Origin: Ceratodon purpureus
Lineage: Eukaryota; Streptophyta; Bryopsida; Pseudoditrichales; Ditrichaceae
Length of the DNA: 64,000 bases
Assembly: GCA_014871385.1 (NCBI GenBank)
Contig: CM026423.1
Coordinates: 12,658,858-12,722,857 of the forward strand
Direction: 5' to 3'
Part shown: piece after piece, positions 40,790 to 64,000 of the stretch
How positions within the stretch are numbered: the stretch's first letter is position 1
Layout: each line of letters begins with the position of its first letter
The notes under the pieces: generated by a model
Database searches by the model: none
What the model was told of the DNA's origin: nothing
Seen by the model: the letters and a program-made list of their open reading frames with translations, nothing else
Translations under genes and position numbers: made by a program

Positions 40790-41810
40790 CACATGGCTTT
40801 CACTGCAACTTGACGGCCTAGTTGTAAGTCTAGTAGTTTAACGTAGTAACTACCAGTAGAGAAGGAGAAATTCAAATCAACTAGAGTTGTTATAGGGTTT
40901 TTGTACACTGCCACATGGCTGTCACTACAACTTGACGGCCTAATTGTGCTAGCAGTTATGAGGGCCTAGTTGTACTAGTAGTTCAGAATAGTAACTACCA
41001 GTAGAATAGGAGAAATTCAAATTAACTAGACTTGTTATAGGGTTTTTGTACACTGCCGCATGGCTGTCACTACAACTTGACGGCCTAATTGTGCTAGCTG
41101 TTATGAGGGGCTAGTTGTACTAGTAGTTTAAAGTAGTAACTACCAATAGAGAAGGAGAAATTCAAATCACCTAGACTTGTTATAGGGTTTTTGTACACTG
41201 CCGCATGGCTGTCACTACAACTTGACGGCCTAATTGTGCTAGCTGTTATGAGGGGCTAGTTGTACTAGTAGTTTAAAGTAGTAACTACCAATAGAGAAGG
41301 AGAAATTCAAATTAACTAGACTTGTTATAGGGTTTTTGTACACTGCCGCATGGCTGTTACTACAACTCGACGGCCTAATTGTGCTAGCTGTTATGAGGGG
41401 CTACTTGTACTTGTTGTTTAAAGTAGTAACTACCAATAGAGAAGGAGAAATTCAAATCAACTAGACTTGTTATAGGGTTTTTGTACACTGCAGCATGGCT
41501 GTCACTAGAACTTGACAGCCTAAATGTGCTAGCACTTTAGAGTAATAACTACCAACAGAATAGAAGAAATTCAAATCAACTAGACTCCTTTTAGGTTTTT
41601 GTAACTGGCACATTGCTATTATTGCAACTAGAAGTGTAATTGTACTAGCACTTTAGAATAGTAAGTAGTAGAATAGAAGAAATTCAAATCAACTAGACTT
41701 GTTATACTGGGGTTTTTTAACACTCTCACATTGCTTTTACAGCAACTTGAGGGCCTAGTTGTACTAGCACTTTTGATGGTTTAGTTGTAGTAGCAGGTTA
41801 GAGTGGTAAG
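40790..41810. repeat. Tandem array of about 145-bp units, 6 to 7 copies, decaying to the right
   Basis: Each unit contains TATAGGGTTTTTGTACACTG, CATGGCTGTCACTACAACTT, GACGGCCTAATTGTGCTAGC and AGTAACTACCAATAGAGAAG. Units near 40.9-41.5 kb are nearly identical; those after 41.5 kb are shortened and diverged. It has no ORF and no long palindrome. The array ends about 800 bp before the gene block on the minus strand at 42.6 kb. Confidence 0.9.
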
Positions 41811-42613
41811 AGCAACCTTAGTCTTGGAAGTTTGGCTCCCTACATTGGCAATTGGCGGCCGCAGGATCATGTGGAGCAGGCCAACGCCCTCTCTATGCCT
41901 CCCGTTATTGTGCGGGTCTCGCCAAAAACCTTCCGCTCTCTGCAAATTTTCCTCCTTTGCCGTGAGCGAAAGCCCTTCCGCTAGCAGTCTTGACATGCTA
42001 AATATAGCCATATTCGAGGTGTTAGAGCCTACAAGTAATCATGTGGACCGACGCGAACCACTACGTGGGAGCTACATCATGTGCTGAGGAAATCGAACCT
42101 GGGACTCTTTCCCGGGAGCCCACGGATCCAAAAGATTGTTATCCTTGAGATTGTAATTGGTAATTTTTCAAACCTTATGCTTAAAAATCATTTATATTTG
42201 TACTTTAGATGGAACACTATATTCATTAATTTGGGAAAAGTGTGCAATTTTGGGACATTGCAAAGAATTTGCAAATTCAGTTTTAATAAAGAGAATGCAA
42301 TAATCCATTCTGCCAATTATAGCAATGAATAGTATTGATAATAGACATTGTGTTCTTACTGGAGACAAAATGCACTCTAGAATTTTGAAATGATGAACAT
42401 ATAAATCCAAATTCATGAAACTATTTTCAAAGAATGGACAATTTATATTCCAAACAAATGTCTATTAATAGAATTATAGGAGTTTACAATTAGGATCCCA
42501 AAAATATACTAGCTCAACTGCAAGTTTTTTTATAGAAATCGGATAACTACAAAGTACGGTGCCCTACTTCGGATTAGTATCCACTAATGTAACACCTATT
42601 TCCTCTTCTACTT
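41811..42613. other. Non-coding, with one tRNA-type B-box-like site
   Basis: No gene is seen. Read on the minus strand, the segment around 42080-42100 contains GGTTCGATTTCC, close to a pol III B box, next to a GC-rich 250-bp stretch (41830-42110). A degenerate tRNA-derived SINE is possible. No A box or tail was established. Confidence 0.3.
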
Positions 42614-43501
42614 CTAGCATTTGTCAGACCAGTGGGCAATTCCTGCAGCCGCAGCAAGTCTTCTCTCTTCAATAATTTTCATCAAAGCATCCCTGTTTGA
42701 TCTAGAACTTCCTGGAGGCATAGGACCTACCACCCTAACTCGTGACGGTACTCCGTTTGTAGGTTGTCTCCCTGGAAACTTGGTGTACATATGACCAAAG
42801 AAAGTTGAATTAACTTCGGCATACGCATGAACTATCTTCCGTAGATTTTGTGCATGCTTGGAACGATAGGGCTTACTATTCACAACACCTACTTCCAAGT
42901 CTGATGGATGTGAGTAGTCCATGGCTGGTAGAATATACTGTTTACGCATGCCATGTCGTACTCCTGGATTGCCAGAATGCATATGTGGAGGAACGTGAGA
43001 AACCTTGAGTCCCATTCCCTGAGAAATGCGAAACAGGTGTCAATACAGGCACGACAAATTTACATAATTGACAAGTTCAAAAATTCTTTATTCCAGTCAG
43101 CACTTTGCAGGAAATCATTACAACGAGCGGCACCAAACGGTTATCACTACCCGCCATGGCCTGTATCACAAAATTAAGGTGACCCTCTTAATCCTAAAAT
43201 TATGATACAACACAAATTGCAACGTCAATGGAACTCAAAGGCGGCGACGAACACTCCTGTTCACTTCAAGATTAGACTTTAACGTTATCGACACCAGCTG
43301 ACGGCGATTGTTGCTTGTTGGAGAGGGAGAGTGTTCGTTGTATCTCATATTTGTCGGTGGACTATCAACGGCATCATCACTTCCAAGAACAGTGGAGTAG
43401 TCCACAGCAGAAGCACAATCTTCAACATGCACATATGTCGTGGACTTCCGCTTACGCAAACTTTGTACATGGGAGACTGAATATACATTTAATTCCCCAT
43501 C
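42614..43501 (-). CDS. Unidentified small basic protein (two exons seen)
   Basis: Exons 43501-43295 (acceptor CATCCAG, donor CAGCTG|GTGTCG) and 43018-42614 join in phase 0 and end at a stop. The product is basic: LRKRKSTTYVHVEDC, then SKPYRSKHAQNLRKIVHAY, AEVNSTFFGHMYTKFPGRQP and a C-terminal helix DALMKIIEERRLAAAAG. The intron contains one copy of the dispersed palindrome (43173-43192). The 5' end is not located and could lie beyond the HAD gene upstream. No domain is recognised. It is co-oriented with the FCP1-like and ParB/methyltransferase genes and probably belongs to the same mobile or accessory unit. Confidence 0.45.
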
Positions 43502-43710
43502 CTGGATGGAGGAGCTCAAAAAATCAAAACTCTTGTAAACAAGTGTCAAACAACAACCTAATGCTCAAGAATTTACCAAAAGCAGCGACCTTTACTTAAA
43601 GAGTATTCACAAAATGTTGGACTGTACAGACTGCGTTCCCGATTGTCAAAACCAGTAAATGCATCAAAAATCCGCTAGCATTAAGGTTAGATCCTAATGC
43701 AAGCTCCCAA

Positions 43711-44856
43711 CTACAACCTCTTCCGATCAATTCGCTCTAGGAAAGCCTTGTTTGGTCGTATACGTCTAGTGTACGGTTCAAGGGACTTCGCTATTCGACT
43801 ATCCTTGGAGATTGGATTCTGAGCTGAAACTCTGAATCCGTCCCCATCCTCTAATAAATCCTCTATGAATCTGTAAACAGGAAAATCCGACAGACACAAG
43901 GACTGGAAGATCTTAATGTCCTTCATCAGATCGCTATTCTCATCCAATATGCTGCGCCAAGGATAGGGGAAAATACAATTCCCCCGAGGATTGAAGAAGC
44001 ATTTAAGCGGACTGTCGTCTATGATAACAGTGTTCTCTTCAGAAGGAACGAAGCCCCCTAGATCTATACCCCATTCTAACCTCCAGAATAGCGGCAATTC
44101 CTTAAAGAATTCTTCATGGGAACCCTGCTCTGACCGATACATCTTATTCTCGACTTCATGTTTCAGGGTAGTGCAATGTCTCTGGGACAACAAAAACGAT
44201 GGCTTACACTCCCCGAACAACCAAGAGACGATTGGAGTAGCCATATCTTGCCCCATGCACGTCCACACACCCACATGTGCTACAGCCAAGAGCGATCGTA
44301 GAAACTGTCGCACGTTTGGCCTAGCGGTAACGAGTCTAAACGATTCCTTCCCCAAAGCCTTTATAAGGGCCGGCAGCTCGTACTGCATTTCCGCCTCGGT
44401 GCTTACATACGTATCTGCGGGAATGTCCTTTTTCTTTAAACTCACGAATTCAATATTGCAGAGGACATGGTTCAAGTCAAAAATGAGAAGTCTCGTCCTA
44501 TGTTTCAGCGCGGGTGCCTCTCTTATTTTTCTGCCTTCTCCTAGGCGCACCTGCTGAGATCAGGACGAGGAACAAACCATCACTATCATGACACCAAACA
44601 TCGAAGTATATGACCAAAAAATTTCCATTAATAAATTCAGCTCAAAATAATCCAGATTTGTAATGAACCACAGAATAAATTCAGGACTAGGTCGCCCTGA
44701 CTGCTACCTACGTTGATTTCCACCTCTATCAGTAGAGCGAGTCCGGTGCATCGGAGTGGGGGGGGTTGATTCATCCCCCACACCCGATAAACCGCCTTCA
44801 CACGCTATCGCGATATCGCCAATACACTTGTAAACCGAAGTTGGCCTTGAACTTCT
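43711..44856 (-). CDS. FCP1/SCP-like HAD phosphatase-type protein (5' end not found)
   Basis: Exons 44856-44708 and 44530-43711 join in phase 2 (CGTAG|GTAGC to GAAGGCAG|A). The second exon is a recognisable NIF/FCP1-type HAD domain. Motif I is LLIFDLNHVL, where the family has DLDETL, so the nucleophile Asp is kept but the second Asp is Asn. Motif II is RPNVRQFLRSLL followed by VGVWTCMGQDMA. Motif III/IV is VIIDDSPLKCFF with both Asp retained, then NCIFPYPW. FCP1/SCP enzymes dephosphorylate Ser-Pro sites of the Pol II CTD. Loss of the general-acid Asp suggests impaired catalysis and possibly substrate binding only. It lies downstream of the ParB/methyltransferase/HAD gene and is paralogous to that gene's C-terminal domain. 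The first exons are not found. Confidence 0.6.
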
Positions 44857-45521
44857 CTGAAGACAAGTAACGAAAAATATTACACAATGACTCAATGAGC
44901 TACTTAAAAGTAAAGCCAAATACTTATATTTGTTGACAATATAAGATACCACAAATGCACAATCAGAGGATACAGAAAACTACTCCACGCTGACAAATGA
45001 GACTAACCGGATAAAGTTCAGGATTAAGGTGGCCGCCTTAATCTCTAACTAAATTAGACTAGATCTGGCAGTATGTACACATGGTTTACCAAAAACGAGA
45101 ATGCATGTTCAATTTAATATCAACATACTGAAATTAACGCGATATCTCAATGCTCCGACGGACCTATAAACCACGACAGAAGCGCATTGCACATACAAAT
45201 AGTACAAACAAAAAGAACTCCCTTACCCTTATAGTGCATTATCATTGTCCAGGAAATCATCGAATGGTGGAACCAAGAAGGAGAGGAAACAGAAGCGATG
45301 ATGGAGAAATGTCACAGATTCAGTCAACAAACAAATTCAGGTGGTCACCTTAAATCGCGAACGAGGTAATTCGAAACAGCCAAATAAACGCACATCCACA
45401 TGAACAGAATGAGAATTAACGTCATCAAAATAAATTTCAATTCATCTAGGCACCTTTCATTGAAAAAGAAAATCACAAGCTTAATTGTCACAGCCAAAAG
45501 AATTCCCGCTACGACATTAAA

Positions 45522-48500
45522 CTACCGTGACTTCATCCACTTCGAGTATTCAACACAAACGTGGCATTTTGCATCCAAAGGAGCTAGACCGGGCACTTTG
45601 CCACGATTTTTACTCATGAACTCCGGAACGTCCTCTCCAGACTTGGCTAGATCGTGAATGAAAGGAAAAACGTGTCTCATTAGGCAAGAATGACGGTCCA
45701 GAGGGCCATGCCAAGGTAACGTTAACAAAACGTTTCCAGGCGAGCTGATATTAATCTCCTGATTACAATCAATTAGGAGAGTGTTCGAACGATTAGGGAG
45801 CTCCCCGCTCAGAGGAGCAGGGTCGAACTTCCACTGATGATCTCTTGTCCACAGAATGTCTTTGACCTCCTTCAGGAAGTAAACGTCCCCTCGACTTTTA
45901 AGTGACCCAACAAGTAAAGGCCTCCTGTGATTATGTCCACTTCTATCACGCATAGGTCTCATCTCCCACCTAGAGAAAATTTTGCCCGGTCGCTTTCTAC
46001 ATTCCTGAAAAAGAAAATTACTGATCTCCACGGCACGATCATAAGGTAAATCTGCCCATACTATCGGAAACACGTTTTCGAGATCGCATAGACGTGACCA
46101 AAACTTCGTGAAGTTAGATCGTACTCGAACCAAATCACTTTTCCCTACCAACGTGACTGACACATCATCTAAGCAACAATCTTCCGGCCTGTGAACAAGT
46201 CCAGAGATTTCAGACTCCCCAATATTTTGGATGTAGGCCAACACTCTCTGAATTTCAAACACTACAAAATATGTCTTCATCGCAGGGATTTTGAGGGCCG
46301 GTGCGATGGTGGGGGTAGATGCCGCGGCGTCGATCCTACTCGACAATGCGGAATCCTGTGCACAGAAGATATCTACGTCATCTCAATCTATTCAGGAATA
46401 AGGAGGATGCCTTAAACCTGCATAATGGTGATGATCCTGGAAGGTGGAATTTAAGGGATTCTTTAACACAGAAGCAAACACTGAAGAAAGTTTACATACA
46501 GTCTTGTACGTGACGTACCTTCCCTTGCGACGTCCAAACGGGAGGCGGGTCCGGCTTTCCCTTTCCTTTCCTTGCAACAGTCTCGGTGGCCTCCTCCGCA
46601 ACCTTCTTTGTAGGCTGAAGCCTTGACCTTCGCTCTTGAGCTTCGGGAGTCGTATGTATTGCAACTACCGGCTTGCCGGCCGCTACCTCCTTCGTTGCAC
46701 GCCCGAGGAGACGTTCCGACGTCCGTCTTTCCAAACTCCCTAGCTCCAGAACTTCTTTCAGTTTCTTAGGGCCTTCTGGGATCTCCTTAGAAGTATCCAT
46801 TCCACTAGTCTGACCTTCAACCACATTTTCATCTACCAGTCCTTGTCCTTTGCCTGATTCCCGAGGAGCTTCATCATCATCACCTAAAACGGTGTGTTCC
46901 ACGTCCGTTACATAAGGATTATGAAGGACATGCCCACTGCCCTTCTCAAGTGCTGAGGCCGAAGGTGGATGAATACGTGGACTTGGAGCTTTGTCGTCGG
47001 CTCCAGCACTGGACTGGTTTAAGGTGGGATCCTTAATCCCTGTGACAAGGTTGTCAAGACGTTGACTCGGGACCTCTCCTCCTTGCCCTATCGGCGTCAA
47101 AATTAAGGTGGACTCCTTAATTCCAACGACACGGTTGTCGACATGTGGACTCGGGACCTCTTCTCCTTGCGCTATCGGCGTCAAAATTAAGGTGGACTCC
47201 TTAATTCCAATGACACGGTTGTCGACATGTGGACTCGGGACCTCTTCTCCTTGCGCTATTGGGTTTAGAATTAAGGTGGACTCCTGAATCCCAGTGTCGT
47301 GTATGTCAACATGTCCACTCACGTCCTCTTCTCCATGCGCTATACTAGGCGTTAGAATTAAGGTGGACTCCTTAATCCCAGTGACAAGGTTGTCTACCTG
47401 AGGTGGAATTCCAAGAGTAGGAGGACAGGGAAGGGTATCCGTTTTACCTCCGCATGTTACGCTATCCGTTAAACCAGGGCTCTTTCCCCCATTTGGCTTG
47501 ATAATCAAATCCGTAGAGGGGACTGTAACTTCATGTCTAGTAACAATGCGGGAATCGCTATCGAGAGTCACCATAGGGTCAAACTGACTTAGATTTAGGG
47601 TATCCTGAATTTCAGTGTCCTCCACTGAATTAGCCATTGAGTAGCCCGGATCTGGCTGTTCTTCAACGTCACACGCATTTTCAAGTTCCTCTGATACATC
47701 TGAAACCCTGACCATCGGAACATCTCCCCCACGCTCGAACTCCATGGGCTCAACGACAATCGGCAATCTTGAACTTGGCACCGGAGCTTCATTGGTGATG
47801 GCGAGTTGACTTCGGAACCTTGACGGTCCACCTCTAGAGGTGGAATAAGGTCCGCGGGAGTATTGAGAGTGGCCATGGATTAAACCAGGATCGTCAAACT
47901 GGGGGTCACAATCCATATGTCCCTCACCGTACTGATCCTCAATGTACTGACCCCCACGGTACTGTTGATATCCACCGTACCCAGCATGAAAAGGAGGTCT
48001 ATATCCTCCTTGAGAAACGCCTGAGCTGCCAGAGTTTAGACTTTCTCTTAGCATCTTCAACTTCACCTCAAGCTCAGCTCTCTTAATCTCCTTCTGAAGA
48101 AATATAATATCGGGGTCTTCTTCGGAATCACACTCCTTCAACTTTTTCGAGGAGAGAAGTCGTGGATTGTAATGCTCGGGGGGGGCAGAAGTTGGGTCGA
48201 AAGTTGGTGAACTCCCGTAGCTCATTGGAGATACATAATCCTCGGAATCCATCCATGGCATTTCGTCTTCTGCATCGTGACGACGTTTTCGTAAATCTCC
48301 ACTTACGTGAGTTGTATCCGCATCACCTTGCTGTTGGGTTCCCTGTGACAATGTTCCTGCGGACATACTCTGATCACCTCCGCCTGTCTCCATTGGTTCC
48401 GTCCTGCCACTCCCGCTGTCACCTCTTTCAGGTGCACTACTGCCTCCGGTCGGGACAGTCCGTGAAGGTTGAAGAAAATCCTCGTGGTTCATTGTTAATG

Positions 48501-51500
48501 CCTTCGACTTCATAGCCTCTAACTCGGCAACAGAACTCTGGTCGCAGAAACTATAAACCTGGATCTTTAACATCTGCGTACATAGAAGACACTGTTAGAT
48601 TGAGGCGGCCACCTTAATTTATGAGGCATGTGAGAAACGAATGTGGTGATCGGTTAACTATAGTCTAACATACTCAAAATCAAAACAAAAACTTCGGAGG
48701 TTTTATATGTTCGTTTTCGCAGCTTAGTCCACTTTAATTGATTACGTGGCCCACCTTACAATCTGGGATTAAGGTGGCCACCTTATTCTTGGCCTTGACA
48801 TTGACGATGAAATTGACTGGTATTGCACAGAATCCATCTCTAGATGCAAACTACCTAACATTTTGAATCGAATTCATGTAGGAGCCCACGTTGTGCCATG
48901 TTCAGCATCATGAGATCAACAATTACAATGGTCAATTACCTGGCATGCGAGCATCAGTTTGCCACCTCCGAATATGTTCAAGACCGTCTTGAAAGGTCCA
49001 GATACATCTTGAAGCAGTCGAATATATGTCTCCATCCTAAACTCTCCAGGATACAATCGGAGCTTTCCTTCGGTGTATGTCTTCAATTTCAGGGACCTGT
49101 AAACATTCGTCAACGGTGGTACCTTCCAATCCTGTTTGACGATGTAGTATATAGTTACCACATTCCCCTTGACCTTTTTATCTGTCTTGAAACCTTCAAG
49201 AGGGTCCGGGTGGTAAAATGCTTCTACAGGCTTCTGATGTGTTGTACGCAACTTACGCTCGTATAAAGCTCGGACCTGTTCCTTACGAGCATCATCCGCA
49301 ATCCATACCCAGATGGGTGTCTCGGTCCATCGCGGCATCTTAAAATTCTCCAGCTTCTTCACAAACGAGTCCCAAAACGGGTTGTCACCATCGGACCCGC
49401 TGAGAATGCCCTCTACATTGCGGAAGTCAATTACAGCAGCCCAGTCTACTCCTGTCCTCTCACGAATTTGGGTCTTACTCAAGCCATGTAGAGGAACGTA
49501 GTTCCCAGGTTTCACCAATGTTCCGTCATCTGATCTGTAATCTTTCTGGACGAGCATGCAAAAACCACATTCTGTAGAGAGGGCATCCTCAGATTTTGTG
49601 TCTACAATGGCTCTCATTGACTCAACAAATGGTGCTGGCAGGTACTCCTTGTCCGTCCTGTTTCTACCATCAAAATTGTTGAAGAATTTCTCACCGGCCG
49701 AGTCAATTACATTGGCCATCGTCTTTGACGTGATCATGTGTGTTTTCTTGAAGTCTCTCCATTTATCCAAGTTCACGTCATTCGCCTCATCTAGTCCTAT
49801 TGAAGCTGAACTCTCCATGAGTTTAAACTTCATCTCTGTAAACCTGTCAAACTCTCGAATAACATGTCGTTTCGTTCTCTTACGGTTGCCCCACTCTAAA
49901 GCAGAATGAACGTTGCGATTCTTGATGCTGGTTTTCACGCTGAAAGGCACTACCTTTGGGTAAATCGGCACGGGCTTCCCTACCTCTGTTTCTTCGTTCA
50001 ACAGGTACGACGCCATCTTCATAATTTCCTTTTCGGTCAATGATTCCAGACATCTGAACCAATTCTTCGACAGGGGAGCAACTGCTTTCAAGTTGTTCTT
50101 GAAGTTTGGCGTATCCTTGATCAGGTGCCCTAACTCCGGGCAAGTAAGCTCACCCTTAACATGAGCTGCAAAGAATCTCTCCCACTTCTCCCAGCATTTA
50201 TCACTTGAACGAACCAGCGCCCACTCGTTTCGGACATCGTTGTAGCTCCATTTGATCAGCTTATCATCCTTCTCCATCATATCCTTCTTCGACCGAACAC
50301 TGGATAATGTCTGGATCATGGAGTTCAGGAATCGCTGGACAGGAACGAAACGAGCGTATGAGATACCACTGAACATCGTAAGCAAAAGAAGACAAGAGGT
50401 TTTCCATATATTAAGGTGTATACCTCATTTCTGCCGAATCAGACCTAGTTCCCTAGCAATGTTGGATTCTAGGAAGGAACAGTTTATTGGAAAGAGAATG
50501 ACCATTGAACAAAATTAAGGTGATCACCTTAATCTGATGGACTTTCTGAAAACGAGAATCGAATAATAAACTAAAAGCCCGCGAAATTAAAATCGGAGTT
50601 TGAGTTATGGATGGTGTAAATATGAAGCCTAAGCTGAGAATATAATGGATTGAGGTGACCCCCTTAATTCGAATTAACGAGATGAACATAACTTCAACTA
50701 GAGACACGTTCAAAACATCGAATTGAGTAAAGTTTACACTAATTTCCAAGTCTGTTAGAATCGGCAACTATGTGTTACATTGACTATCTGGTATTCAAGT
50801 AAGAAATAGAAACTTACATTCCAATCGGCCCTTTTCTTGTTCATTTCGGGGCTTGATTTGTCGGATGCATTGACTCGCGTCCTTTCTGGCCTCCCCATCT
50901 GCTCCCAAATACGCCTAACATGTACGATATTTGAAGCCCACGTAGGCTTGAAAGGGTTGATTTGATTTGACTGATTATAGTACTCCAAAATTGCCTGGAT
51001 TTTCCAAGCTTCGAGGTCCCAAACAATTTGTGCTTTCCAAGTCTTCATCAGATCCTTCCTTGTCGAATCGACGTCAGGGTTCACGATAATTCGATTTGCA
51101 GCCATTACGGTATGCTGCCCACTAATTGCCCAGAATCTGAGTTCTTTTATTTGATTCCAATCTTTAGGATTTTCGGTTAATCCCTGAGGGTATAGGCACA
51201 GTACTTGCTTGTTCGGGATGACCTGAGTCATCAAGGTGTTGTACACTGTTGTCACACCTTCGTTTTCCAAAACGCGTACTATGAAGTTGCATGGTGCTAT
51301 ATCAACCATTGTGATATCTACGTCCACAATGGTATTATATCCAAGAGGATAGTATTTTCCAAAGTCAGCTTCGAAGTTCGCAAACCTACGAATGCACTCC
51401 TCTGCGACTACGGTTCCATCGGCGTTTCTATTTGTCGGGAGGTTGTGTCTAATCGGTGGATCTGCCTCGGATTCCTGCTCAGTCTCTTTTGGCGTTTGGG

Positions 51501-52143
51501 CTTCCTTTGTACCTGGTGTCTCAGAATTCTTGGCCTTCGACTTTCCACAAGGAACTTTTTTCGGTGCTCCGCGGACAGCTTCCGTGACTCCAACTGTACC
51601 AGAATTTGTGACTGCCGAGGTGTTTCCGCTATCCTTTTTAGAAACCCTCAGTTTCTTCTTTGTTCCAGATTCAACGACCTTCAGTACCAGCTTCGAAACC
51701 TGTCTCTCTATTACCCCTGCCTTATTGGATACTTTGTGAAAAGTCTCCGAAACAAAGGAGAATAAGCTAGACTCCTTCCAAAACTCCCGCATTCTAGAAT
51801 GATTCATTCCGAATACCTCGGTGTTGATAAGGAGAGCCTCACGCACAGACTCGGAGCGCTGTAGTGTGAGGGACAAATAAGGGTGTGTCGCATTACAAGA
51901 AACGACATGGTATCCGTTCACCAAGACATACTCGTTGGATCCCAGGAACTTGACAAGCAAGCATGTTTTCTTTGATTCCTCGCTCTCCCTTTTCAGAATC
52001 CAGCCTGCTGCTATATCAAGTACATCCGCCTTCAAAGTGAATTTCACCTCATCAATCTCCTCAAAGAAGTCGTCGTCGCATCCGTCGGGACATTGATCTT
52101 GCCGGACTGCAAATTTGAAAAGAAAGGGATCGGATGTAGCCAT
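45522..52143 (-). CDS. ParB-like + methyltransferase-like + disordered repeats + degenerate FCP1-like HAD (about 1869 aa)
   Basis: Exons 52143-50818, 50334-48940, 48573-46519 and 46355-45522; every intron is phase 0 and the total is 5610 nt. Residues 1-442 end with a ParB-like domain (LRFWAISGQHTVMAANRI near 342). Exon 2 is the methyltransferase-like domain in beta-class order: WAAVIDFRN (about 744) at the DPPY position and VLNIFGGGK (about 896) as the SAM loop, continuing into exon 3 with KIQVYSFCDQ. This is the layout of the 3.8-13.1 kb gene, with motif IV even more eroded. Exon 3 is acidic and disordered (about 685 aa) with five repeats of 25-29 aa containing GIKESTLIL. Exon 4 is an FCP1-like fold without catalytic Asp (YFVVFEIQRVL, LLIDCNQEI). 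An acceptor just before the ATG implies a 5' UTR intron. Confidence 0.78.
47028..47376 (-). repeat. Five copies of the palindrome inside coding tandem repeats
   Basis: Copies at 47028, 47102, 47186, 47270 and 47357 read ATTAAGGTGGACTCCTTAAT or close variants, at spacings of 74-87 bp, in exon 3 of the ParB/methyltransferase/HAD gene. On the coding strand they encode GIKESTLIL within repeats that also contain PIAQGEEVPSPHVDN. One arm position differs from the non-coding consensus (CTC for CAC). The protein repeat thus carries the same DNA motif as the introns around it. Confidence 0.85.
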
Positions 52144-54300
52144 CCTGCAAATGGAAACAGTTGCAACATGCCGTGAGAATGGCTAGGTGAAAAATATATG
52201 AATAACGAAAAAGATTAAGGCGATCACCTTAAAATGAATGGACTGAGACCTTCAGTTATCACAGTTCAATTGATTATAACGTTCCTCAACTGTATAACTT
52301 CACCAATATATTACACATACGTAAACTTCTCTCACCATAACTCGCATTCAGATTTTCTTTCCTAGTCAGAACAGACTCAGATTTAAGAAGAGCGAAATGG
52401 CTATATTAGCATGTTGTAATAGAGTAGACTACATTGATAAGGATTTAGGTGGTCACCTTAATCCACGTCATTGAGATTACAGATTATAGTTGACATCGAC
52501 TTCATTCAGTAGATGAGGGATTCGGAACAAACATGGCGACACGGATGGTTGTAGATTTCTGGAGAAGACCGGGACTTTCTGCACTACCTTAATCAAGCAT
52601 TGGGAATGTGACAAAAGATTAAGGTGACCATCTTAATTCTAGAGGAAGGGTGCTAGACAATACTCCTGTGGTTTACCTTCTCCTAAGAGCAAAACAGTGC
52701 GATAACGTTCAGGACCGAGGCAATATTTTATTGAAGATTAAGGTAGTCACCTAAATTTGAATGAAGTACAGAATTAAGGCGACCACCTTAAACTCAGAAG
52801 ACATAGTTAAAGCGACTATCCTAATCTGGTAAAAGTATTTAAGAGGCCACACTAATATCGCAAAGAAATTCTATGAATAACTTTATAACAGTGAAGTAGT
52901 TGCACCGGAGATTGTATGACGAAGACTGTATAGTACTATGTAATTCAAACAAAACCTTCAGTGAAGACCATTTCTTGAGGAAGACGCTAATCACATTGTT
53001 ATTGTAGGTCGGTATATTTTGAATTACATCTGGATTGTGCAGACAGGAAGGTAATATACGTACTATGACCCAATGACATGCTCATCTCAATGCTACATCG
53101 AACAATATCAATCAGGACAACTTTAAAATCCACAGAATTGAGCCCCCAGCAATGTGATCTGCAATTGTGGACCTCGAGTACTGTATTCCGAATATAATGA
53201 GCATTAAAAAAGAATAGATTAGACTACCCTGACCTCTATTCTCACTGCTATACTGTTGATGTCTACACAAGGAACAGAATAAATCGGAAGATACCATTAC
53301 AAATGAAGCAAATTCAATACCGAAACCAGACACTTTCAATGGAATAGCAAGCTCTGCAAATTCGGGTTTTTTGATGTTTTTGTAACTGTGGTCTACAACG
53401 TGAAAAACGCACAACTTCGTAGAACAGGAAGGAAAATAGGTCCATTCCGGAAAATCGACGGAAACTACAGAACAGCAACAGCGGACCAGTACATGAGACC
53501 CTCAACTATCCGTAAATCGGGGACCACTGAGCAAGATTGAAAGATTTGGGTACAGTTTTCCTAATGAAATGGGATGAGGGGGGGGGGGGGGGGAAGCGGG
53601 GGAGGAAGGAGGGGTACTACTCGACAACATCAGAACAAGCCCTAAACAGAAGCAAAATACCCGAAGCAAAATGGTATGTCAAAGAGCTTTGAAAATGAAG
53701 GTTACATTTCAAGAACAAACCTCGCATAAGTCCTGATGAAGTGCTCCTGGCCGTAGTTGCGGCGGCGCTTCAGATGCTCCCGTCACCGCGCAGCACAAGA
53801 AACAATTCTTCAAAGCGAGAACCGGATTTCGCAAGCAAACCCGAAGTCAAGAAGTCTGAACGAAGAAAACAGGAAATGCTACGTCATGAATTCAGGTGCT
53901 ACTGTGAGTACTGTCGACGTAAGAGGGCGAAAACGGAAGCCTCGCAGAGGGTAATAGACATTCCAGTAAACCACAACGAAGCCAAGCAATGTATGAACAA
54001 GTTAGGTCTGAAGACAATCTGGAAACAAGGAAAACTTACTCGTAAGCACGCAGGAGCTCCGCATCGGTGAGAGAGAAGATGCACACTGACCCTGCGAGTG
54101 CGTAGACACAAGGTGGTCGATGCCAGGAGAGGAGGTGCGAGTCTCAAACGGAGGATTCCAGAGAACGGAGTGCAAATACATTGGGAACAGCAGGGATCGT
54201 ATCATGAGCCCTAGAAGTGGATCTATCGAGGCTACGGTCTAGATCTATGAGTCATTTGATTGTGGAGTTTGTGGGTCCACAAAGTGCACCTAGTGGCGGC
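52144..54300. promoter_or_regulatory. 5' region of the ParB/methyltransferase/HAD gene
   Basis: No convincing coding exon. It holds six palindrome copies between 52214 and 52824, a poly-G run at about 53579-53593, and a possible minus-strand leader exon near 53725-53790 with donor GAG|GTTTGTTC. A plus-strand ORF at 53741-54070 overlaps this leader. It includes an Arg/Cys-rich piece (FRCYCEYCRRKRAK) but has no clear start, so it is not called as a gene. Confidence 0.4.
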
Positions 54301-55684
54301 TTACCCAGATCAGATTATTTTTGGGACGTGAAGTCACCTCGCTAATAATACTGAAGGCTTATAATACTCATGATGCATGAAGTAATTATGTGTCTAAAAA
54401 TACTAATTACGATTCATGGAAATCAGTAGTGGCGGCCACTCAAACCAGACTCAATGGATCCAATCAATTGTTTTACAAATGCTGGGATCATCATCTTCAG
54501 AATTGATTGCATTTCCGTTCATATGCATGATAACATAAGTCTCTCTGATTATTATTAAAAATAATGGACATGAATCCAGTTGGTGTAATTTAATTTTTTT
54601 AAGGATTGTATGGACATCAAGGCGTTTAATCATATTGTTCATTACTTTAATTTATGGAATATAATTACTTTTGCATAATAAATTTAGGCATGCATTTCTG
54701 ATTTGATCAAAAATAGTTCACGAAGAGGAATAATTATAGAAGGCTCCAAATTTCAGCGCATAACTATAGTATAATATATGGTGATTTTGGAACGTCATTG
54801 CTTAGTTGATAATAAAAATTATTTTAAAAAATATAAAAAAATTAATTAAAAAAAAAAAAACGAGAAAGATTGCCAAAGGAAGAGTGACAAACACCATGTC
54901 TAATGAGTGTGGAGTAATATTCATATCCAAATCTTGGCTTTTCCTTTCAACTAACCATTGACATTCAAAGTGAAATTCAAAACACTCATTGAATGCATAA
55001 ATTATTGCGTTCCCTTATGTACTATTGGATACGGTGACATCACTTCTTACAACAGTAAATCATCAATTGCCGTAGTGGATGACCGAAGAGATAGGCTTAA
55101 ACTTCATATGCTACATTTGGCTACTTTATCGACAATATATAATAATTTCAAATTGTAAGTCGTTAGATTCTCAATTCATCTACAAACTCCATATTTTCTT
55201 ATAATCGATTTTCTACATGCAGTTGTGAAAATGACTTTATAAATGAAAATCATTAAAAAAAAGATCTTATCAAGTGGTAGATATCTTTAAAAACCACAAA
55301 ATATTTACTATCGTTGTATATGACATCAAGATCCTTATATCGGTTACCTCACTTGGAAATTGATTTTTTATTCTTAAGCATGATGAAGGTATAATATCTT
55401 GTGGAAATCAAGTACGAGCCACGATTATATACCATCATCATACACCACCTTCGAATGTTTGAAATTTCGGATATTCAAAGATTTACAATACCCCAAGTGG
55501 AAAATTCATTTGTCAACTTGCACTTTATTATTTAGCACAGTACAAGAAAAACATTGTCGCTAAAGTCAAAAGTGTTCTAGATGTCTTTTCTTTGAAAATT
55601 GGAATCTATGACACGCTATTAATGTTTTAATAAACTCAAAAGGCTTAATATAATTGACAATTTTATTGTTGAGGTAATTCATTA

Positions 55685-55894
55685 ATGATTACTTTTCAAA
55701 TAATTCCTTATAGAAATCAACAATTGGGATTAATAGAGAAGCCTAAACTATTATATTATGACAATCGTGGTATTTCAATCTTATTATCTCATGCACACTT
55801 TAAACTAGATACAAAAAAGAAGGTCGAAAACAGTTTTTACGAATGTCATGCATACAAACCGAGAATAGGAGAAAATGTCACTTTATACCACTAA
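55685..55894 (+). pseudogene. Decayed Ty1/copia RNase H-region relic
   Basis: The frame reads IEKPKLLYYDNRGISILLSH then FKLDTKKK and ENSFYE. This parallels the copia integrase/RT-RNase H region motif in which a YCDN block is followed by a lysine-rich TKH segment and a His/Phe-Ile-Arg-Glu block. Several expected residues are changed (YYDN for YCDN, DTKKK for RTKH) and the surrounding frames are closed. It is a short relic without LTRs recognised by eye. Confidence 0.45.
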
Positions 55895-56112
55895 ATTTGA
55901 ACACATGGGACAAACAAAAGAGTAAATTATATGGACAATATTATGTTCGTCCTTCAAGGCACTAGAAACACATATTTAATTCTAAAAATCCAAATTCTGT
56001 TTAATATTAATACATTAATATACTAAATTTTTGTTAATTATTAAATATATTAATTTAAATTTCCTATAAATATTAGTATTTTTATAAAATGAATATAAAG
56101 GTTGATTTATTT

Positions 56113-56116
<4 letters not shown>

Positions 56117-56185
<69 letters not shown>

Positions 56186-56253
56186 CTTATTTTTTCTCTC
56201 TCTTTCTCTCTCTCTCTCTTTCTAGTATATATATATATATATGCTTATATACT

Positions 56254-56286
<33 letters not shown>

Positions 56287-56310
56287 GTATATATATATGA
56301 TAATATTGTT
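56117..56310. repeat. (TA)n microsatellite with CT-rich interruption
   Basis: Long TATATA runs are interrupted by a TCTCTCTTTCTCTCTCTC stretch at about 56200-56225 and then resume. ORFs of Ile/Tyr repeats here are artefacts. Confidence 0.95.
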
Positions 56311-58016
56311 AAAAATAGATTTTGACATATAATTTATGCATAGTCTTTAATCTTTAGAAATGAACACACCTTTTTTAAATTGATATTTAAAAGTTGTATC
56401 AGATGCAGTTAATTAAAATACAAATGTAATAAGGACTGTCAAAGAATTAGTATAGATTGACAAATATGAAGACAATAAACTAATAATACAGATAGTGCAA
56501 CATATAATAATTGTTATATATATTTTTAAATGAAATACTCACAAATAAAATCTGTGATGAAATCCATGGAAATTTTAAAAAATAAAATTACATCACGTAA
56601 AGCACAAAGCAAAAAATGGATAATTATGATGTCATTGTAGTGCAAAGTGGCAGCTTAATAAGTAATAAGCATTTATCTTGGATTTAATTTCATTTAGAAA
56701 ATCTTCCACAAATTGATTTTTCATTCTTCCAAGGTTGAATAATGCTTGTTCTTGGGTTTATATATTTATTAATAATTGTTGTTGTTTGTATTATATTGAG
56801 ATTTAATGCAATTACCATTGTAAGCACTTATCAAGAAACATAAATAGAATTAATTATTCCTAAAAATTGATTCCATTAAGAATATTAAAAAGCTTGAGTT
56901 TTAATGTTTAAATAAAAGCTTACAATAAAAGAGATGATTGAATACAGTATCCCCAAGTTGAGAATAAAAATGAGGCTATAAAAAGATATAAAAAAATACA
57001 AATATGGAACTTACTATATTTTATGATAAAGAGACCTAATACATTTCCTTAACATACATGTTAAACAGCAACCATTGCAAGTTTAAAGTAATTTTAGTTA
57101 TAAATAGAGTTATAATTTTCTGATTATCAACATTGATTGTGTATAATGAATCAAAATTAAGGAAAACTCTTTTACACTCTCTTAATTTAATCAAGATCTT
57201 GTTAAACTTTTAAAAGTATTTCCTTTATAAGATTTTTATTTTTATTTTTAATTTCAAACATTGTAACACTCTTATATAGAACTCAAGAAGGTAGTAGTAG
57301 AAGTTGTATGGTAGGATTACACGCGCCTTATACGAGCAAATTAAAAGATAATATCATATTTAAAGATTTGACTTTAAATACAAATATGAAGCATTGAAGG
57401 CGGTACATTAAAATTATTTACTCCTCTACGATATTTACATTTTAACGCAAGGCTTCATTCCTTTAGCGTATGTGATCAGATTAGAAACTTTTAATATTTA
57501 TATCTTTAATTATTATTAATATTTTTCTTTTCTAATGAACTACTAAATGATAGTTAGGGCCACCTTCAATTATTTTTAGCCTAGAATCGTGTTTAGAGAA
57601 TTATATCCATATGGAATAAGTGATTCTGTATTTTTCCCGGAATTACAACAATGGATTCATTCCTGCAAGTGTACTCCGAGGATGCCGCCATGGTCATTGG
57701 ATGAAAACTTTGTCGATTCTGCTGGATGATTCTCCTCCACTTTTCGTTACAGGACACATTTAGACTCGACGTCTTAGTAATTTCTACTTCATTCATAGCA
57801 TATTGTCTAAGACACGAATGAGACAACTTTGGAGAATCGATATGACATCCGCCGCAGTAAGAAGTAGACTCTCATCATCTGAGCGTATTCTCTCTTCTAC
57901 TCCAACACCAAAACTGCTTAGGTTTATGATCAACATTGGTTTCAAGAGCAGTGCCTTCTTTTTCTCCATTCCGCTGAAGCTGTTGTTCATGTAGAATCTC
58001 CCGCTTTGTAGACAGA

Positions 58017-58874
58017 ATGCCAATATCAGTGGACCCTCACTCACATCCGGGGACCATTGTTGAACTGCTGCAATGGATGGTCACAGTGCGTACAATCCAT
58101 GAACGCACAGGCTTTTGCTATCTACCAGAGCACGACGACATCGTTCTGGCTTTGCTCGATCGAAGCACAGCACTGCAATGGAGCCGGCAATGTCAGTTGC
58201 AATTCAACACGGTAAACAACGTTCTGAACATATCCTTCGCTCCGGGCACTGAAGGGGGTGATGCACCCGTTCCCATGCCACGAGTTCTTGCTGCCGCGTC
58301 AACTGTCGATATACTGGACCTTCACCAACCAGGCCGTGAAAATCATGGGGATGCTCCCCGCCGTCCTCGCCATGGGCCGATGCGTCGCCGCCGGAGCGAT
58401 GGGGTCTTGGGTCCCGGGCCTAGACAGCTCCCACTTGTACACCCCAGCCCGCCTTATCGTCTTCAGCGTCCAAGGGTCATTAACAACTCTATTTTGCGAC
58501 GTTCAGCTAGCCCAGATCTCCCGGTCGCTCGTAGTAATTCGCCACCGAGTGCGCGGAGCGCTCTGCCTCGATGGGCCCAGGCGGATTCATCAAGATCCCA
58601 GGAAATTGCGATGGGTGGTATTAGTGCTTTAACGCCTATCTCCAACGGCTCATCAGGTCAACGGGACGAGATTCCATCAGACGATGGTTCAGATAGTAAC
58701 CGCAGAGGTGTGATCAGGTTTTATGAGTACCGGAGTGCCAGAGAATCCGATGGACATCGTGGAGAGGATGTGAACATTACAGGAGTGGGCCAGGCATCCG
58801 AGCAGATAGGGTACGCAAGCAACGAGGACCACGTTGAGTCTGACCAAGTGTGTACATGTGGGCGACCTCTTTAG
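58017..58874 (+). CDS. Hypothetical basic protein (285 aa, single exon)
   Basis: The ATG starts MPISVDPHSHPGTIVELLQW, followed by a compact N-terminal part (TIHERTGFCYLPEHDDIVL, ALLDRSTALQWSRQ). A Pro/Arg-rich low-complexity middle contains many SP dipeptides (RRSASPDLP, ARSNSPPSARS). The protein ends in an acidic tail with DQVCTCGRPL. GC content is higher than around it. No domain is recognised; the tail Cys pair could bind metal. It lies upstream of and parallel to the transposase-like gene and may be its accessory ORF. A partly overlapping plus-strand frame (58258-58632) is considered a shadow. Confidence 0.45.
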   Translation: MPISVDPHSHPGTIVELLQWMVTVRTIHERTGFCYLPEHDDIVLALLDRSTALQWSRQCQLQFNTVNNVLNISFAPGTEGGDAPVPMPRVLAAASTVDILDLHQPGRENHGDAPRRPRHGPMRRRRSDGVLGPGPRQLPLVHPSPPYRLQRPRVINNSILRRSASPDLPVARSNSPPSARSALPRWAQADSSRSQEIAMGGISALTPISNGSSGQRDEIPSDDGSDSNRRGVIRFYEYRSARESDGHRGEDVNITGVGQASEQIGYASNEDHVESDQVCTCGRPL

Positions 58875-60938
58875 TAGTTCCCGCCTAATCCTGTTCCATA
58901 CTTCCATACTCTAGAGTTTTGAATCAGTTAGTTCACTGAAGAATCTTGGGACATGGAATTCTGTTTATTTTTTTCCAGCATGCAAAAGTTTTGACTCTGT
59001 TAGAAGAGCTGCGTTACTGCTCTCAATACAGTGTTAGTGGACACTTAACGCAATAACAGCTTTTGGACATTTTTCCGTCGGCCACAGGTTGTAGAATTTC
59101 ATGCGATGCATGTGATCAATATATGGGTAACTTTGCCTTCCTTCTCATGTTCCTGCATGTATTGGTCACTGGGCTATTGTTAACCTATCTTTATTTAACC
59201 TTGTCGTTTTCTCTTCCACGAATAGCTAGATTATGGTAGCTTTCTGGAAAGCAGTAGCTAGAATCATACTTTGCTATTCTTTGAGCACTCTGGTGGCGAC
59301 TGTTTTAATTGTGTGGGTACGTAGGATAAGTATGGAATGAAGTGCTCCATTTTTGGTACAGAACGTTCACATTCTAGAATGCACAGATTTCAATGCATTT
59401 GTTGCAGTGTAGTAGCTGTCATTCTCGGGAGGTGGATCGTTGTGTCGTTTTCAGGGCTGTAAATTACTAAGAATCCGAGATCAAACAGCTTGACCTTTTC
59501 TTAGAGGGGAGTTTAATTTTCAAAGAAAGTTTCCCTCCAATTTCATGGTTTTACATCACATCGGCTCCATGTCATTACATGTCTATATAAACTAGTGGTC
59601 CCAAAATGTGAACCGCATCTTTCCTTTGCATGGAGTGCTAACCTTGTAGCTTCGAGGTCCATTGCATTCTTCTCTACGGTCGCCCACAACGTCAGGACGC
59701 ATACCCGTTCAGAGCTCCAACTTTGTAAGTTTCTCTCTCTTTCCTTTCCTCGTGCTGCTTTGAGTCATACGTTACGATTTGAGCATTCTTAAGTTGTTGA
59801 GGACTGTGTTTTGCAAAAGATGATTCGTAGGTAGGAAGTCCATGAGTTTGTTTCGTCGTGCAAAGTCAGAGAGCCACGAACCATTTCTCTTATGTTAAGT
59901 GTGCATCTATGGGCATTACTAGTCTGCCTAGAACTTCAACGTCATGAAAAGGTAGTCCTGTAATAAGACTTGAAATCTGATAGTATCAGCCCACTTTCGT
60001 GCAATTCCATGTTTCATCTACAGTGCTTGGTTTGTAGGAGCTGTGTATCGTCTCTTCTCACAAATCGGCTGTGGCAACTGCACAAACAAATTTCTCTTTT
60101 GTTAAGTTCAGTTGTAATACCAGAAATCTAAAAAAAGCTATGAGTTATTTCGTGGAAAATTATCTCATGTCTGTATTCAGGTCTCCGTTTCAATTCCTTG
60201 GAAGTTGGAGTGTCATCAGAAACATATTCTTTGATAACATATTAGATGGTTTCCGAATTAACACCTTTCTGTGAGAGAAGTTGTTTTCATAAATGAGATT
60301 GTTTTTGGTAGGAGAAGTGCTTGCAATATTGTAGTCACAAGTATTCATTTCTACAGAGTACGTTTATATTAAGGGGGGTCGCCTTAATATACAAGCCAAT
60401 ACACTATGAACTTTGATGATGCATGTGGTTAACGGAGGTGAATTTCTCGTTTTTGTTATCACGGACTGCATGTGTGGATCCTGTAGGTTCATGGCGTGCA
60501 TGGTGCATGCATTACGGTTTATAAATTCAGGGGACCATCTTAATTGTGCTCCGTAGTAAGAACGCAGCTAATACATGGCAATTTTGGATTCACTTAGTAA
60601 TAACAGTCTTGGGAAAAAAATGATTAGTTTCATTATCTTTCATGAAGAGTTTTGTTATTGTCGTCGACGTCAACAGTGACAGTGGCTACGGCCCTACGCG
60701 ACCCTCGGTTTAAGACGGTCCTCTTAATTTTTGGGTAAACGTGACGTCGTCGAGCGTCTGGTCACGGTATCAATGTCGGCGACGGAATTGTTGCTCCTAC
60801 TTTTACTATTATCTTGGACAATACCTTTTTAAACGTCCCCCAAAAGCGTAACAATTCCTCTCTGGGTGGGAATATTTCTGGTTACCGAATTGTTCCTAAA
60901 ATAACTGTTCGTTCCATGTCTGTAGGGGGAAATAATCA
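58875..60938. other. Intergenic region with palindrome copies near its right end
   Basis: No gene is supported; ORFs are under 70 codons. Three palindrome copies lie at about 60368, 60525 and 60708, close upstream of the transposase-like gene. They probably belong to its 5' region. Confidence 0.45.
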
Positions 60939-63742
60939 ATGGCGGGCACTCATGACTTAGCGTCGGAGGAGGTACGAGATAATTTATGTAGATCCGCCCA
61001 TTTTTAGATCATTCTGTATGTGATTGCTTGCATGGTGAGATTGACGCAAATAGATAGCTAACCGTGTGGGAATTGTTGATTTTTGTGCAGATTCTTTTCG
61101 AAGGGGAAATTGAAGAAGCTGCCATTCGTGTGCCTCCAATTCTAAATGGTCCGATCGAATGATTGAATTTTCTGTTTATAGTTCGAATTTCCTTTGTATA
61201 GAAAGTTAGTAACCCACGGCCATGGCGACTTGTAACGTACGACTTATGCTTTCAGTATTAAGTGGTCCCCCTTAATTCTGGGTACTGCAAGGCTTTTAGA
61301 CTGGTTTTTTTTTATCGCCCTTAGTTTTATTTGGACGTTCAATTTTCGGACCATATTGAATGCTTGTGATAACGGTTGATTGAATTGCACTCATTTTATC
61401 TAACAGACCCCGCACTCACTGGCGATAATACGGGTGAGCCTGTTGCAATAGCTGCGTCCACTTTGGTACGAGGAACTCTCTTTTCATCATGCCTCTAATT
61501 TTATTTATCCATGATTCGGAAGAACGGGTGGGTGGAATACAACACTATTGTGTTTTGATTTTTATCCATCTTGCAGGATAATGATTCCGAAGGAGAGTCT
61601 AGTGCGCCTGATCTGGACAACGACCCGGAGTCGCACAATGAAATTCCAGAGCCCTTGCAGTCAGGACTTCCTCGATCGGAGTGGCTGAACCTGGAGGTTT
61701 CAGTTTTCAACGCCGAGGGTGACCTTGTGGGTGCTGGAGTCATTCGAAACTGTGAACCCGCTGACTGCGTCGACAACAGTCAACTCGGTTTGCAAGACGT
61801 AGGTGTCTTGATCCTTGAATCGATCTTGCCAGAGCACGTTCCCGCGGACTGGAGTACTCCGTTCGCCGCTGGCCTTGCACACTTGTCAAGTATCGGGGAA
61901 CATCACTGTTTGATCTGGGGAGAGTATTTGAGGAGGATAGACTGGCTCGCACGAATGGAGAGCTTCAAGGACCTCGGCGACAATACAATTCTACCCGGGA
62001 GAAGGCAACGTACTGAGAAACTTCAGCGCATGATAAGCGATCAAGCCATATGGGAGGTTGCCTCGAAGACGTGTTGTATGAGAAGGTGTACCCGGAAGAT
62101 TGAACCAGAAGTTGTTAGAAGTTTAAGATATGAGATGTGGTCATCTGATCACAAACTAAGATCTCACATCAAGCTTGAAGTTCAAGGCATGTCCGCCCGG
62201 TGGTGACCGTAAGTATGTGACACTAGAGAATGAAGAAGTCTGCCTCAAAGGCTGGATGATAATTATGTCTGTGTCCAAAACAGAGTTCTACAGGCAACGA
62301 TTAAACGCCGGTCTTGGTGTCCGCTCTTCACACCATGGTAACCGAGGAATGAAGAAGCGGAGGGCAGGAACGAGGCAAGCACTTGCGTCATTGGCATGTA
62401 TAATTGACGCAACAGCTGACTCAATGCCGCACAGATTTCGTACTCTAACAAGCGGTGAAAGAGTTGTGGAGCGTGTTCTGCCTGCTGGAACGAAGTGGAA
62501 GGATATCCGCAACAGGCTGATGATGAGGTGCGTCTGATTTTCCATTGCAGAATTTTGACACATGATTGCAAGTGCTCTATTTATCCCCCCGTTATAGGAG
62601 TAGTCGTAAGATGTAATCATGTAGAATGGTTTGAGCATATGTTGAGGATAATACGTGCATATTGAAATTAGGATAGGATACCGTGCTGAATGATTGTTTG
62701 TAGTACTTTGATTTTACATCGGAGTTGTTTTAATATGAAGACGTCGTCTCCACAATGAAGTCAGCTCTTTCCCATGTGCAAACTTGACATTTTCAGATTG
62801 TTACTGCTATCATTTAAGAAAGCATCCCTATAAACAACACAGTCGGAACCTCAGGTGCAGTTGTTGTCTGTTCGGATACTATTCTGTCTATCATGTACCA
62901 TTCATTGACGATGAACTTTTCAGCATTAATTTACCTGGGACTAAGGTTATCAAAGCAGTTGTTTGGCTATACAAATTCAGTTCGCCTCAACAGTCTATGT
63001 TAACAAGCTGAGTTTTCTTGAATTGAATGGTATGTCACCTTAAAGTTTTGTTTTGAACAATAAGGTGTCTTACGAATTAAGTCGTGACTATAGTTTATTC
63101 GTATGTAGTGAATAATCAGTGAATTGCCGAGCCTCTTCTCTATGACATTGGTATTACTGCAGTACTATCAGGCATTTCTGTACGACGTAGTACCTACATC
63201 CCTTCGGATGTATACAAGTTTTGGGAATGGGTTCGCCATACGAATTAAGGTGGACACCTTAATATGGGGATTTCGATCCAGAACCGCTGTTACTAATTTA
63301 AATTGCTTTGCCTCCAACCGAGCGTCCTTTCTAAGAATGAATGGGTTAATTGTTGATCTCCTTTTCGTGTGTAGTTAATAATCCCGCCACTGAGCTCAAA
63401 CTTCGTAGAAGGGTATTATTTACTTGATAATTTAATTCTGTTTTTTTCACTGCAAATGCGACAGATGTCACCTTCGTTTTAAGGTGGCCACCTTAATCCT
63501 GTCCAAGTGGAAGTCGATTACTGACTCATATTACCAAATTCTGATTTTCTCTTTTGATTAAGTTTAGCTCGGATTCTTTTCTATAATCTTGCGGGTTCTG
63601 TAGTTTCCGGTAGGAATTTCTGTAGGTATTGAATTGTTGTCTTTGGGCCATGGCCTTTCGATTGTTATGGATAACAGTTGATATACAATTTCTTTATCTC
63701 TGTAAATTGTGTTCTGCTTCAAATTGAGGTGATCACCTTAAA
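60368..63742. repeat. Dispersed 20-bp palindrome, right cluster
   Basis: Copies start at 60368, 60525, 60708, 61257, 63244, 63478 and 63723, with the same ATTAAGG arms as the left cluster. The best are 63244, 63478 and 63723. A half site (CACCTTAAAG) is near 63036. They lie upstream of, or in introns of, the transposase-like gene and not in its exons. Confidence 0.8.
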
Positions 63743-64000
63743 TCTTATACTGACTATTTTGCTACTTCGTGTGCAGGTGAACGCTGCTTTGGGGTTACCT
63801 GAAATTCGGCCTCAACGGTGAGCTTTCTCCGGCGCCTTGAGTTCAGCGACTGTATAATCAAACGCCGAGGTGATATGTTGCTCGATGTGGTACCTGTGAT
63901 AGGAGGAAGCAAATGAGGGATGCCCATCCTTTGGGTTCTTCCGCTTACGCATTTTATGCGAAGTTATTAGACCGCCATCTTGCAGAGCAGGAGGCGCACC
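60939..64000 (+). pseudogene. Transposase-like gene with a frameshift, running off the right edge
   Basis: Exons 60939-60971 (MAGTHDLASEE), 61091-61148, 61407-61465, 61577 to about 62532, 63777-63817 and 63903 to the edge. The large exon has WLNLEVSVFNAEGDLVGAG, VIRNCEPADCVDNSQLG, then KYVTLENEEVCLKGWMII, SSHHGNRGMKKRRAG, DSMPHRFRTLTSGERV and VLPAGTKWKDI. I associate this style with repeated transposon-type ORFs of bryophyte genomes but cannot name the superfamily. At about 62190-62205 the frame ends at TGGTGA, while the next frame continues the protein, so one base appears gained in a C run. The exit from this exon fits only a weak donor (TGC|GTCTGA). Palindrome copies sit in two of its introns. 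Probably a decayed copy. Confidence 0.5.

Follow-up and report, generated by a model that had tools for sequence, protein, structure and literature searches.

The transposon and its genes

The stretch of DNA considered here (the window, 64,000 nucleotides) comes from the moss Ceratodon purpureus (GenBank assembly GCA_014871385.1, contig CM026423.1, here called C3, positions 12658858-12722857) and contains a large DNA transposon in which a 20-bp palindrome recurs many times (Table 1). A first-pass annotation had placed the palindrome in two transposon-like gene blocks. The sites do lie in these two blocks, but the blocks are not separate: both of them, together with the AT-rich stretch in between, form one DNA transposon bounded by terminal inverted repeats (TIRs). 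A second copy (copy B; C3:12811794-12837989), located 110 kb away, matches the window from 42210 to 64000 throughout at 99.4-99.7%, the AT-rich block included. Copy B, which was read whole whereas the window's copy was read up to the window edge, measures 26.2 kb, carries 25-bp TIRs and contains a DUF7869 gene. On the left the two copies are flanked by different sequences, as expected from transposition more than from segmental duplication.

The host genome was scanned over 362.5 Mb in 151 contigs, one of which (C6) comprises 110.5 Mb while the other large contigs comprise 16-29 Mb. The terminal repeat, present in several variants, gave 126 and 122 matches on the two strands at up to three mismatches, compared with 0 and 0 for the reversed control. 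From the match list, thirteen TIR pairs were read that enclose about 24-30 kb, and other pairs are longer, up to 94 kb. Two TIR pairs were inspected for a target site duplication and none was recognised; in one of these pairs the repeats are 50 kb apart, so that it may be nested.

Four minus-strand open reading frames join in frame to give gene 1, with 1869 aa and splice sites judged by eye. Its first exon has four protein relatives (60-80%) and its second exon three (46-70%), with no others at E 0.001. The fourth exon and the HAD/NIF domain of gene 2 are related (25%, E 1e-10); gene 2 itself matches NIF (E 3e-14), and its match to a dullard-like model stays below that model's cut-off. Since both HAD/NIF domains deviate by eye from the DxD phosphatase signature, both may be inactive. 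The plus-strand protein of copy B contains DUF7869 (E 9.5e-44 in a direct scan), and its transposase-like exon matches DUF7869 alone, with no MULE transposase found. DUF7869 has at least 150 matches in the host genome (best 150 of 1393 candidates scored); we infer that it represents a transposase superfamily, and its matches, together with the TIR variants, suggest a large superfamily of transposons. Between the divergent gene blocks, in the window as in copy B, lies the AT-rich block (54300-57800, about 25-33% GC), for which no open reading frame of 100 aa is listed and which holds no site.

Table 1. Features of the transposon and positions of the palindromic sites in the window
Feature	Position	Strand	Remarks
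Large DNA transposon	42213..64000		runs past the window edge; delimited by the second copy and the terminal repeat
Left 25-bp TIR, AACACTATATTCATTAATTTGGGAA	42213..42237	+	inverted partner seen in copy B
One palindrome, downstream of gene 2	43173..43192		
Gene 2, NIF-type HAD phosphatase domain	43711..44550	-	above Pfam cut-off
Two palindromes, intergenic between genes 1 and 2	45023..45354		starts 45023, 45335
Gene 1 exon 4	45522..46355	-	related to gene 2 HAD/NIF domain
Gene 1 exon 3, 28-aa tandem repeats	46519..48573	-	repeat DNA holds five palindromes
Five palindromes, coding repeat of gene 1 exon 3	47018..47376		starts 47018, 47102, 47186, 47270, 47357
Two palindromes, gene 1 intron 2	48599..48787		starts 48599, 48768; degenerate copy at 48741 (5 mismatches)
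Gene 1 exon 2 (earlier 'methyltransferase'; 465 aa)	48940..50334	-	
Three palindromes, gene 1 intron 1	50410..50668		starts 50410, 50514, 50649
Gene 1 exon 1 (earlier 'ParB'; 442 aa)	50818..52143	-	part of four-exon in-frame model
Five palindromes, 5' region of gene 1	52214..52792		starts 52214, 52443, 52618, 52737, 52773
Two 3-mismatch palindromes	60525..61276		starts 60525, 61257; degenerate copies (5 mismatches) at 60369, 60709
Three palindromes, upstream of DUF7869 exon	63244..63742		starts 63244, 63478, 63723
DUF7869 (transposase-like) exon start, approximate	63778..64000	+	in copy B L011:8412-9998, continuing in L012

The palindromic site and its confinement to the element family

The repetition of the palindrome is real: the window contains 23 sites with up to three mismatches to the 20-mer ATTAAGGTGNNCACCTTAAT, against a mean of 0.03 and a maximum of 1 in shuffled sequence. 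Eighteen of these fall at 43173-52792 and five at 60525-63742, and at up to four mismatches there is none in 1-42000 or 53001-60300, so that the restriction to 43-53 and 60-64 kb proposed earlier is borne out. When five mismatches are allowed, 28 of the 29 matches in the window lie within 43173-52856 and 60369-63742, the remaining one (five mismatches) being at 13724. Purines are preferred just outside the 20-mer, in the 31 sites of copy B as well as at -2 (45 of 46 arms) and -1 (41 of 46 arms) of the window sites, which gives an extended site of about RRATTAAGGTGRYCACCTTAATYY. Beyond these purines the claim that the copies share the palindrome and not their flanks holds as well, save for the five copies in the 84-bp coding tandem repeat and a trio in copy B spaced at 122 and 121 bp. 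The tandem arrangement is seen in these two places, and the majority of sites are dispersed.

Many copies without common flanks, one set of them inside a coding tandem repeat, would also be expected if the palindrome were a tiny functionless sequence that spreads by itself, such as the end or insertion of a miniature inverted-repeat transposable element (MITE). The longer common unit which that explanation calls for is absent, however, as in the 31 sites of copy B sequence information extends no more than about 2 bp beyond the 20-mer. Furthermore, copies persist at matching intron places in related elements while the flanks diverge in most pairs, no site lies in the window left of the element (1-42211), and at up to four mismatches copy B holds its 31 sites in 26.2 kb compared with one in 73.7 kb of other DNA examined. 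We therefore consider a spreading sequence of this kind very unlikely.

Scanned over the whole genome, ATTAAGGTGGTCACCTTAAT gave 620 and 660 matches on the two strands at up to two mismatches (reversed control, 0 and 0), sites with a symmetric centre being counted on both strands. There are 41 exact sites, 38 of them on C6, and 28 of the 41 lie within 30 kb of a match to gene 1 exon 2, where 1.1 would be expected. The list of sites with up to one mismatch is complete on contigs C1-C5 and partial on C6. On C1-C5 it comprises 27 sites, of which 21 are in TIR-paired intervals, four in the window's copy and two no more than 5 kb from an isolated TIR match. The motif is thus far less dense elsewhere in the genome than in the element, with C6 listed in part, and the equal density that would have spoken against a link to the element is not seen. 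Contig C6, which carries 72 of the 91 exon 2 matches listed, is probably a sex chromosome; a review describes a 360-Mb genome for C. purpureus with U and V chromosomes of more than 100 Mb each (PMC8000587).

The presence of sites follows that of gene 1 in a small sample of eight TIR-paired intervals on C2-C5, chosen by eye and including intervals of 40 and 94 kb that may be nested. All five intervals bearing gene 1 contain sites, in two cases just one A-type site, while the three that have related TIRs and DUF7869 and lack a gene 1 match are devoid of sites at up to one mismatch to either pattern. This comparison uses lists of TIRs, DUF7869, gene 1 and sites only; for gene 1 the best 87 of 445 and the best 95 of 680 candidates were scored, and the five gene 1-bearing intervals show no DUF7869 among the matches listed (best 150 of 1393 candidates).

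These distributions also bear on the possibility that the sites bind a host transcription factor and that the element exploits them as enhancers. The groups of sites sit next to or inside predicted genes, and the AT-rich block lies in a 7.6-kb gap that is free of sites. The shorter core AAGGTGNNCACCTT occurs 233 times, compared with 68 occurrences of its control; among those listed, some on C1, C2 and C4 are isolated, which indicates that some core sites lie elsewhere than in elements. Yet all 27 sites on C1-C5 are in or beside elements, so that no host regulon is visible at up to one mismatch, three elements with related TIRs lack sites at that threshold, and the site differs between two element clades of one nucleus, as described below. 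Binding by a host factor hence appears rather improbable.

Conservation and symmetry of the site

The 30 best-scoring of the 91 exon 2 matches, the window's copy included, were examined with 1.5-kb flanks, and all 30 loci have sites beside exon 2. In each of seven loci tested, introns 1 and 2 together contain six to nine sites (shuffled sequence, 0.01-0.05) while the coding exon 2 contains none. Subfamilies were labelled I-VI by identity bins. The site was more conserved than the surrounding intron in 20 of 23 pairs (0.92 versus 0.79 within II; 0.82 versus 0.67 between I and II), in a comparison that favours the site because sites were picked by their likeness to the consensus. In the coding repeat of exon 3, conservation is 0.92 in site columns and 0.62 in the flanks, a figure that is biased because the last repeat copy runs into non-repeat sequence and that is not relied on here.

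An exon 2 tree resolves two sister clades, I+II+III (support 0.95) and IV+V (support 1.0), with IV and V interleaving. The site has shifted between them: a G occupies position 7 in 67 of the 70 arms from clade I-III and in 28 of the 68 arms from clade IV-V (Fisher 6e-13, a value that is overstated, since related sites are not independent). A distant relative of gene 1 (47% identical) is present in three copies with equal scores, at C3:25023043, C17:20695 and C50:1851, the first of them 137 kb from the end of C3.

The two arms of the palindrome vary independently of each other. In a set of 68 distinct 20-mers from introns, 13 of 612 positions deviate in both arms, against 9.7 expected under independence, and in transcript sense the mismatched pairs comprise 27 A-C and 19 G-U. 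Arms that deviate independently, with each half kept alone, point to a DNA site for a dimer rather than to an RNA hairpin. Self-complementarity and the intronic location of many copies could in principle reflect selection of a hairpin that acts in splicing or RNA stability, but the independence of the arms speaks against it, as do A-C mismatches no rarer than G-U pairs, the sites 5' of gene 1 and the absence from 42-64 kb of any Rfam match that reaches its gathering score; we regard a hairpin as highly improbable. Conservation in 20 of 23 pairs, independent arms and confinement on C1-C5 agree with the earlier suggestion of a two-fold symmetric site, apparently under selection, that is tied to its own element family and mostly noncoding.

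A candidate self-recognition system

That a protein binds the palindrome is very probable, and the element itself probably encodes it; as to its identity, the gene 1 product is slightly favoured over another protein. An anti-silencing effect of site occupancy, suggested by analogy, is less likely than not. In Arabidopsis, VANC proteins counter the silencing of VANDAL elements (PMC5735166). Taken as a whole, our best explanation, to which we give somewhat less than an even chance, is that the palindrome could be the binding site of an element-encoded symmetric dimer, most likely the gene 1 product, serving VANC-like self-recognition, with anti-silencing as the use that we favour. An element-encoded protein, with the gene 1 product as first candidate, would bind about RRATTAAGGTGRYCACCTTAATYY as a two-fold symmetric dimer. 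Through some thirty sites in promoter, intron and intergenic DNA it would recognise its own family and occupy the noncoding DNA of that family. Occupancy would then mark the element as self and keep its genes from being silenced, as VANC does for VANDAL.

Several observations weigh against this explanation. Apart from the way in which sites were picked, the site was less conserved than its flank in 2 of the 23 pairs and equal to it in one. Subfamily VI, with an exon 2 that is 47% identical, shows a single partial core site, and lacks an array, in the copy that was read, and 13 of the 41 exact sites lie more than 30 kb from any exon 2 match listed, though some of these adjoin terminal repeats or relics of gene 1 exon 1. 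Gene 1 shows no DNA-binding domain in searches of Pfam, PHROGs, NCBIfam and PDB, AlphaFold models of its exons 2 and 1 are too poor to be used (mean predicted local distance difference test scores of 35 and 32), and its reading frame contains stop codons in many copies. Lastly, half-sites with up to one mismatch occur within 80 bp of all three right-type element ends read, namely L055, L056 and L058 (two, one and one half-sites; background, 0.17 per 700 bp), which would suit a part in transposition.

The half-sites are best considered together with an alternative in which the sites are cis-determinants of transposition and an accessory protein of the TNPA type builds a transposition complex on them or represses transcription. 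Sites that are element-specific, repeated and clade-specific, next to a separate non-transposase gene, fit such a role, and in CACTA elements the motifs and the proteins that bind them diverge together (PMC2613891). None of the five left-type ends, however, has a half-site within 700 bp, and the full sites are mostly internal. Eight element ends were read; from them it is 682-1421 bp inward to the first full site, and there is no CACTA-type subterminal motif array within a few hundred bases. In copy B the outermost full sites lie 961 and 714 bp inside the element, whose 31 sites are spread over 25 kb, introns and coding repeats included. The repeats of soybean Tgmt* are found no farther than 159 and 732 bp from the element ends (PMC2613891), a range that just one site of copy B would narrowly enter. 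On balance we judge a role in transposition unlikely.

The likeness to En/Spm TNPA and Tgmt* nevertheless extends to a reiterated motif with inverted copies, to a candidate element-encoded binder, here proposed from the gene model, to a motif and a protein that diverge between subfamilies and to motifs near an element end, represented in the moss by the half-sites at one end (PMC2613891). The moss element differs in that its full sites are mostly internal, its TIR starts with AACACTATATTC and no tnp2 transposase is present in the open reading frames scanned; CACTA elements make a 3-bp target duplication, and none was recognised in the two moss TIR pairs mentioned above, of which one may be nested.

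The first-pass annotation had drawn the analogy with VANC, which the arrangement of the sites supports: a short motif is repeated in many copies in the noncoding DNA of one element family, as in VANDAL elements (PMC5735166, PMC10398659). VANDAL subfamilies likewise have shifted motifs, and a non-transposase gene encodes the binder, for which gene 1 is the candidate here. Some copies lie in tandem repeats there, as some do in the moss element, where most sites are dispersed. The proteins are different. The VANC domains DUF1985 and DUF287 have no Pfam match in gene 1 (exons 1 and 2 to E 10, exons 3 and 4 to E 1), and the moss element, at about 24-30 kb, has DUF7869 and no MULE transposase that could be found. 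Its site is a 20-bp two-fold palindrome, compared with a 9-base VANDAL motif, and it also occurs in a coding repeat. Because neither a VANC domain nor a MULE transposase was found, the moss element resembles the VANC/VANDAL system in anatomy but is no member of it.

The labels ParB and methyltransferase, given earlier to exons 1 and 2, have so far gained no support, as Pfam, PHROGs, NCBIfam, PDB and profile comparison all remained without significance. In Pfam, gene 1 exons 1 and 2 have no match even at E 10 and exons 3 and 4 none at E 1; PHROGs and NCBIfam searched at E 1 give nothing below E 0.08 for the gene 1 pieces; and PDB, by sequence and by profile, yields a single chance-level match (E 2.6). 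The N6/N4 DNA methyltransferase model PF01555 has no match in gene 1 and neither does the ParB_N model, although a missing match does not prove absence. A search with tblastn of the ParB-like piece against plasmids found none, and viral contigs contain no match to exon 2 and none to the exact 20-mer. Nor was a methyltransferase or ParB-methyltransferase identity supported by hhalign comparisons with phage methyltransferases and ParB-methyltransferase fusions, which gave P 0.52 and 0.29, then P 0.14, with 25 of 150 shuffled profiles scoring as high in the last. The best local hhalign match falls on a stretch of gene 1 resembling methyltransferase motif I and is not significant. Compared by eye with the diagnostic motifs, gene 1 reads DFRN at the DPPY position and GQHTV at the ParB box, and the labels are without statistical support.

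A descent of gene 1 from a ParB-methyltransferase fusion of bacterial or phage origin, now no longer catalytic, in which loading at the palindromes as at parS and subsequent spreading would mark the 26-kb element as one chromatin domain resisting silencing, is an analogy that rests on resemblance by eye, and we consider it quite improbable. The dispersal of palindromic sites over kilobases on both sides of a supposed binder's gene is reminiscent of ParB-parS, the ParB-like stretch of gene 1 being recognised by eye only. The parS site, however, has a different sequence and length, the ParB_N model is without a match, and the moss case is a eukaryotic transposon with introns. Should such a descent be true, it would represent sequence-specific self-recognition of a long element that is independent of VANC and has a spreading mechanism.

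Neither the moss element and its site nor a DUF7869 superfamily was found described in the open-access literature searched. If the preferred explanation of self-recognition by an element-encoded dimer is true, self-recognition through site arrays arose outside VANDAL, in a moss and with unrelated proteins, and arrays of short sites may help plant transposons in general to evade silencing. The thirty or so natural sites, two clades with shifted sites and relatives free of sites make the pairing of protein and site directly testable.

Tandem repeats were also noted. A satellite of 119-145 bp units at 40768-41776 of the window stops about 430 bp left of the element, and this satellite recurs in diverged arrays some 3.4 kb to the right of copy B. 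Farther to the left, a 201-bp tandem repeat occupies positions 5539-8113 of the window, with 12.8 copies and 92% matches.

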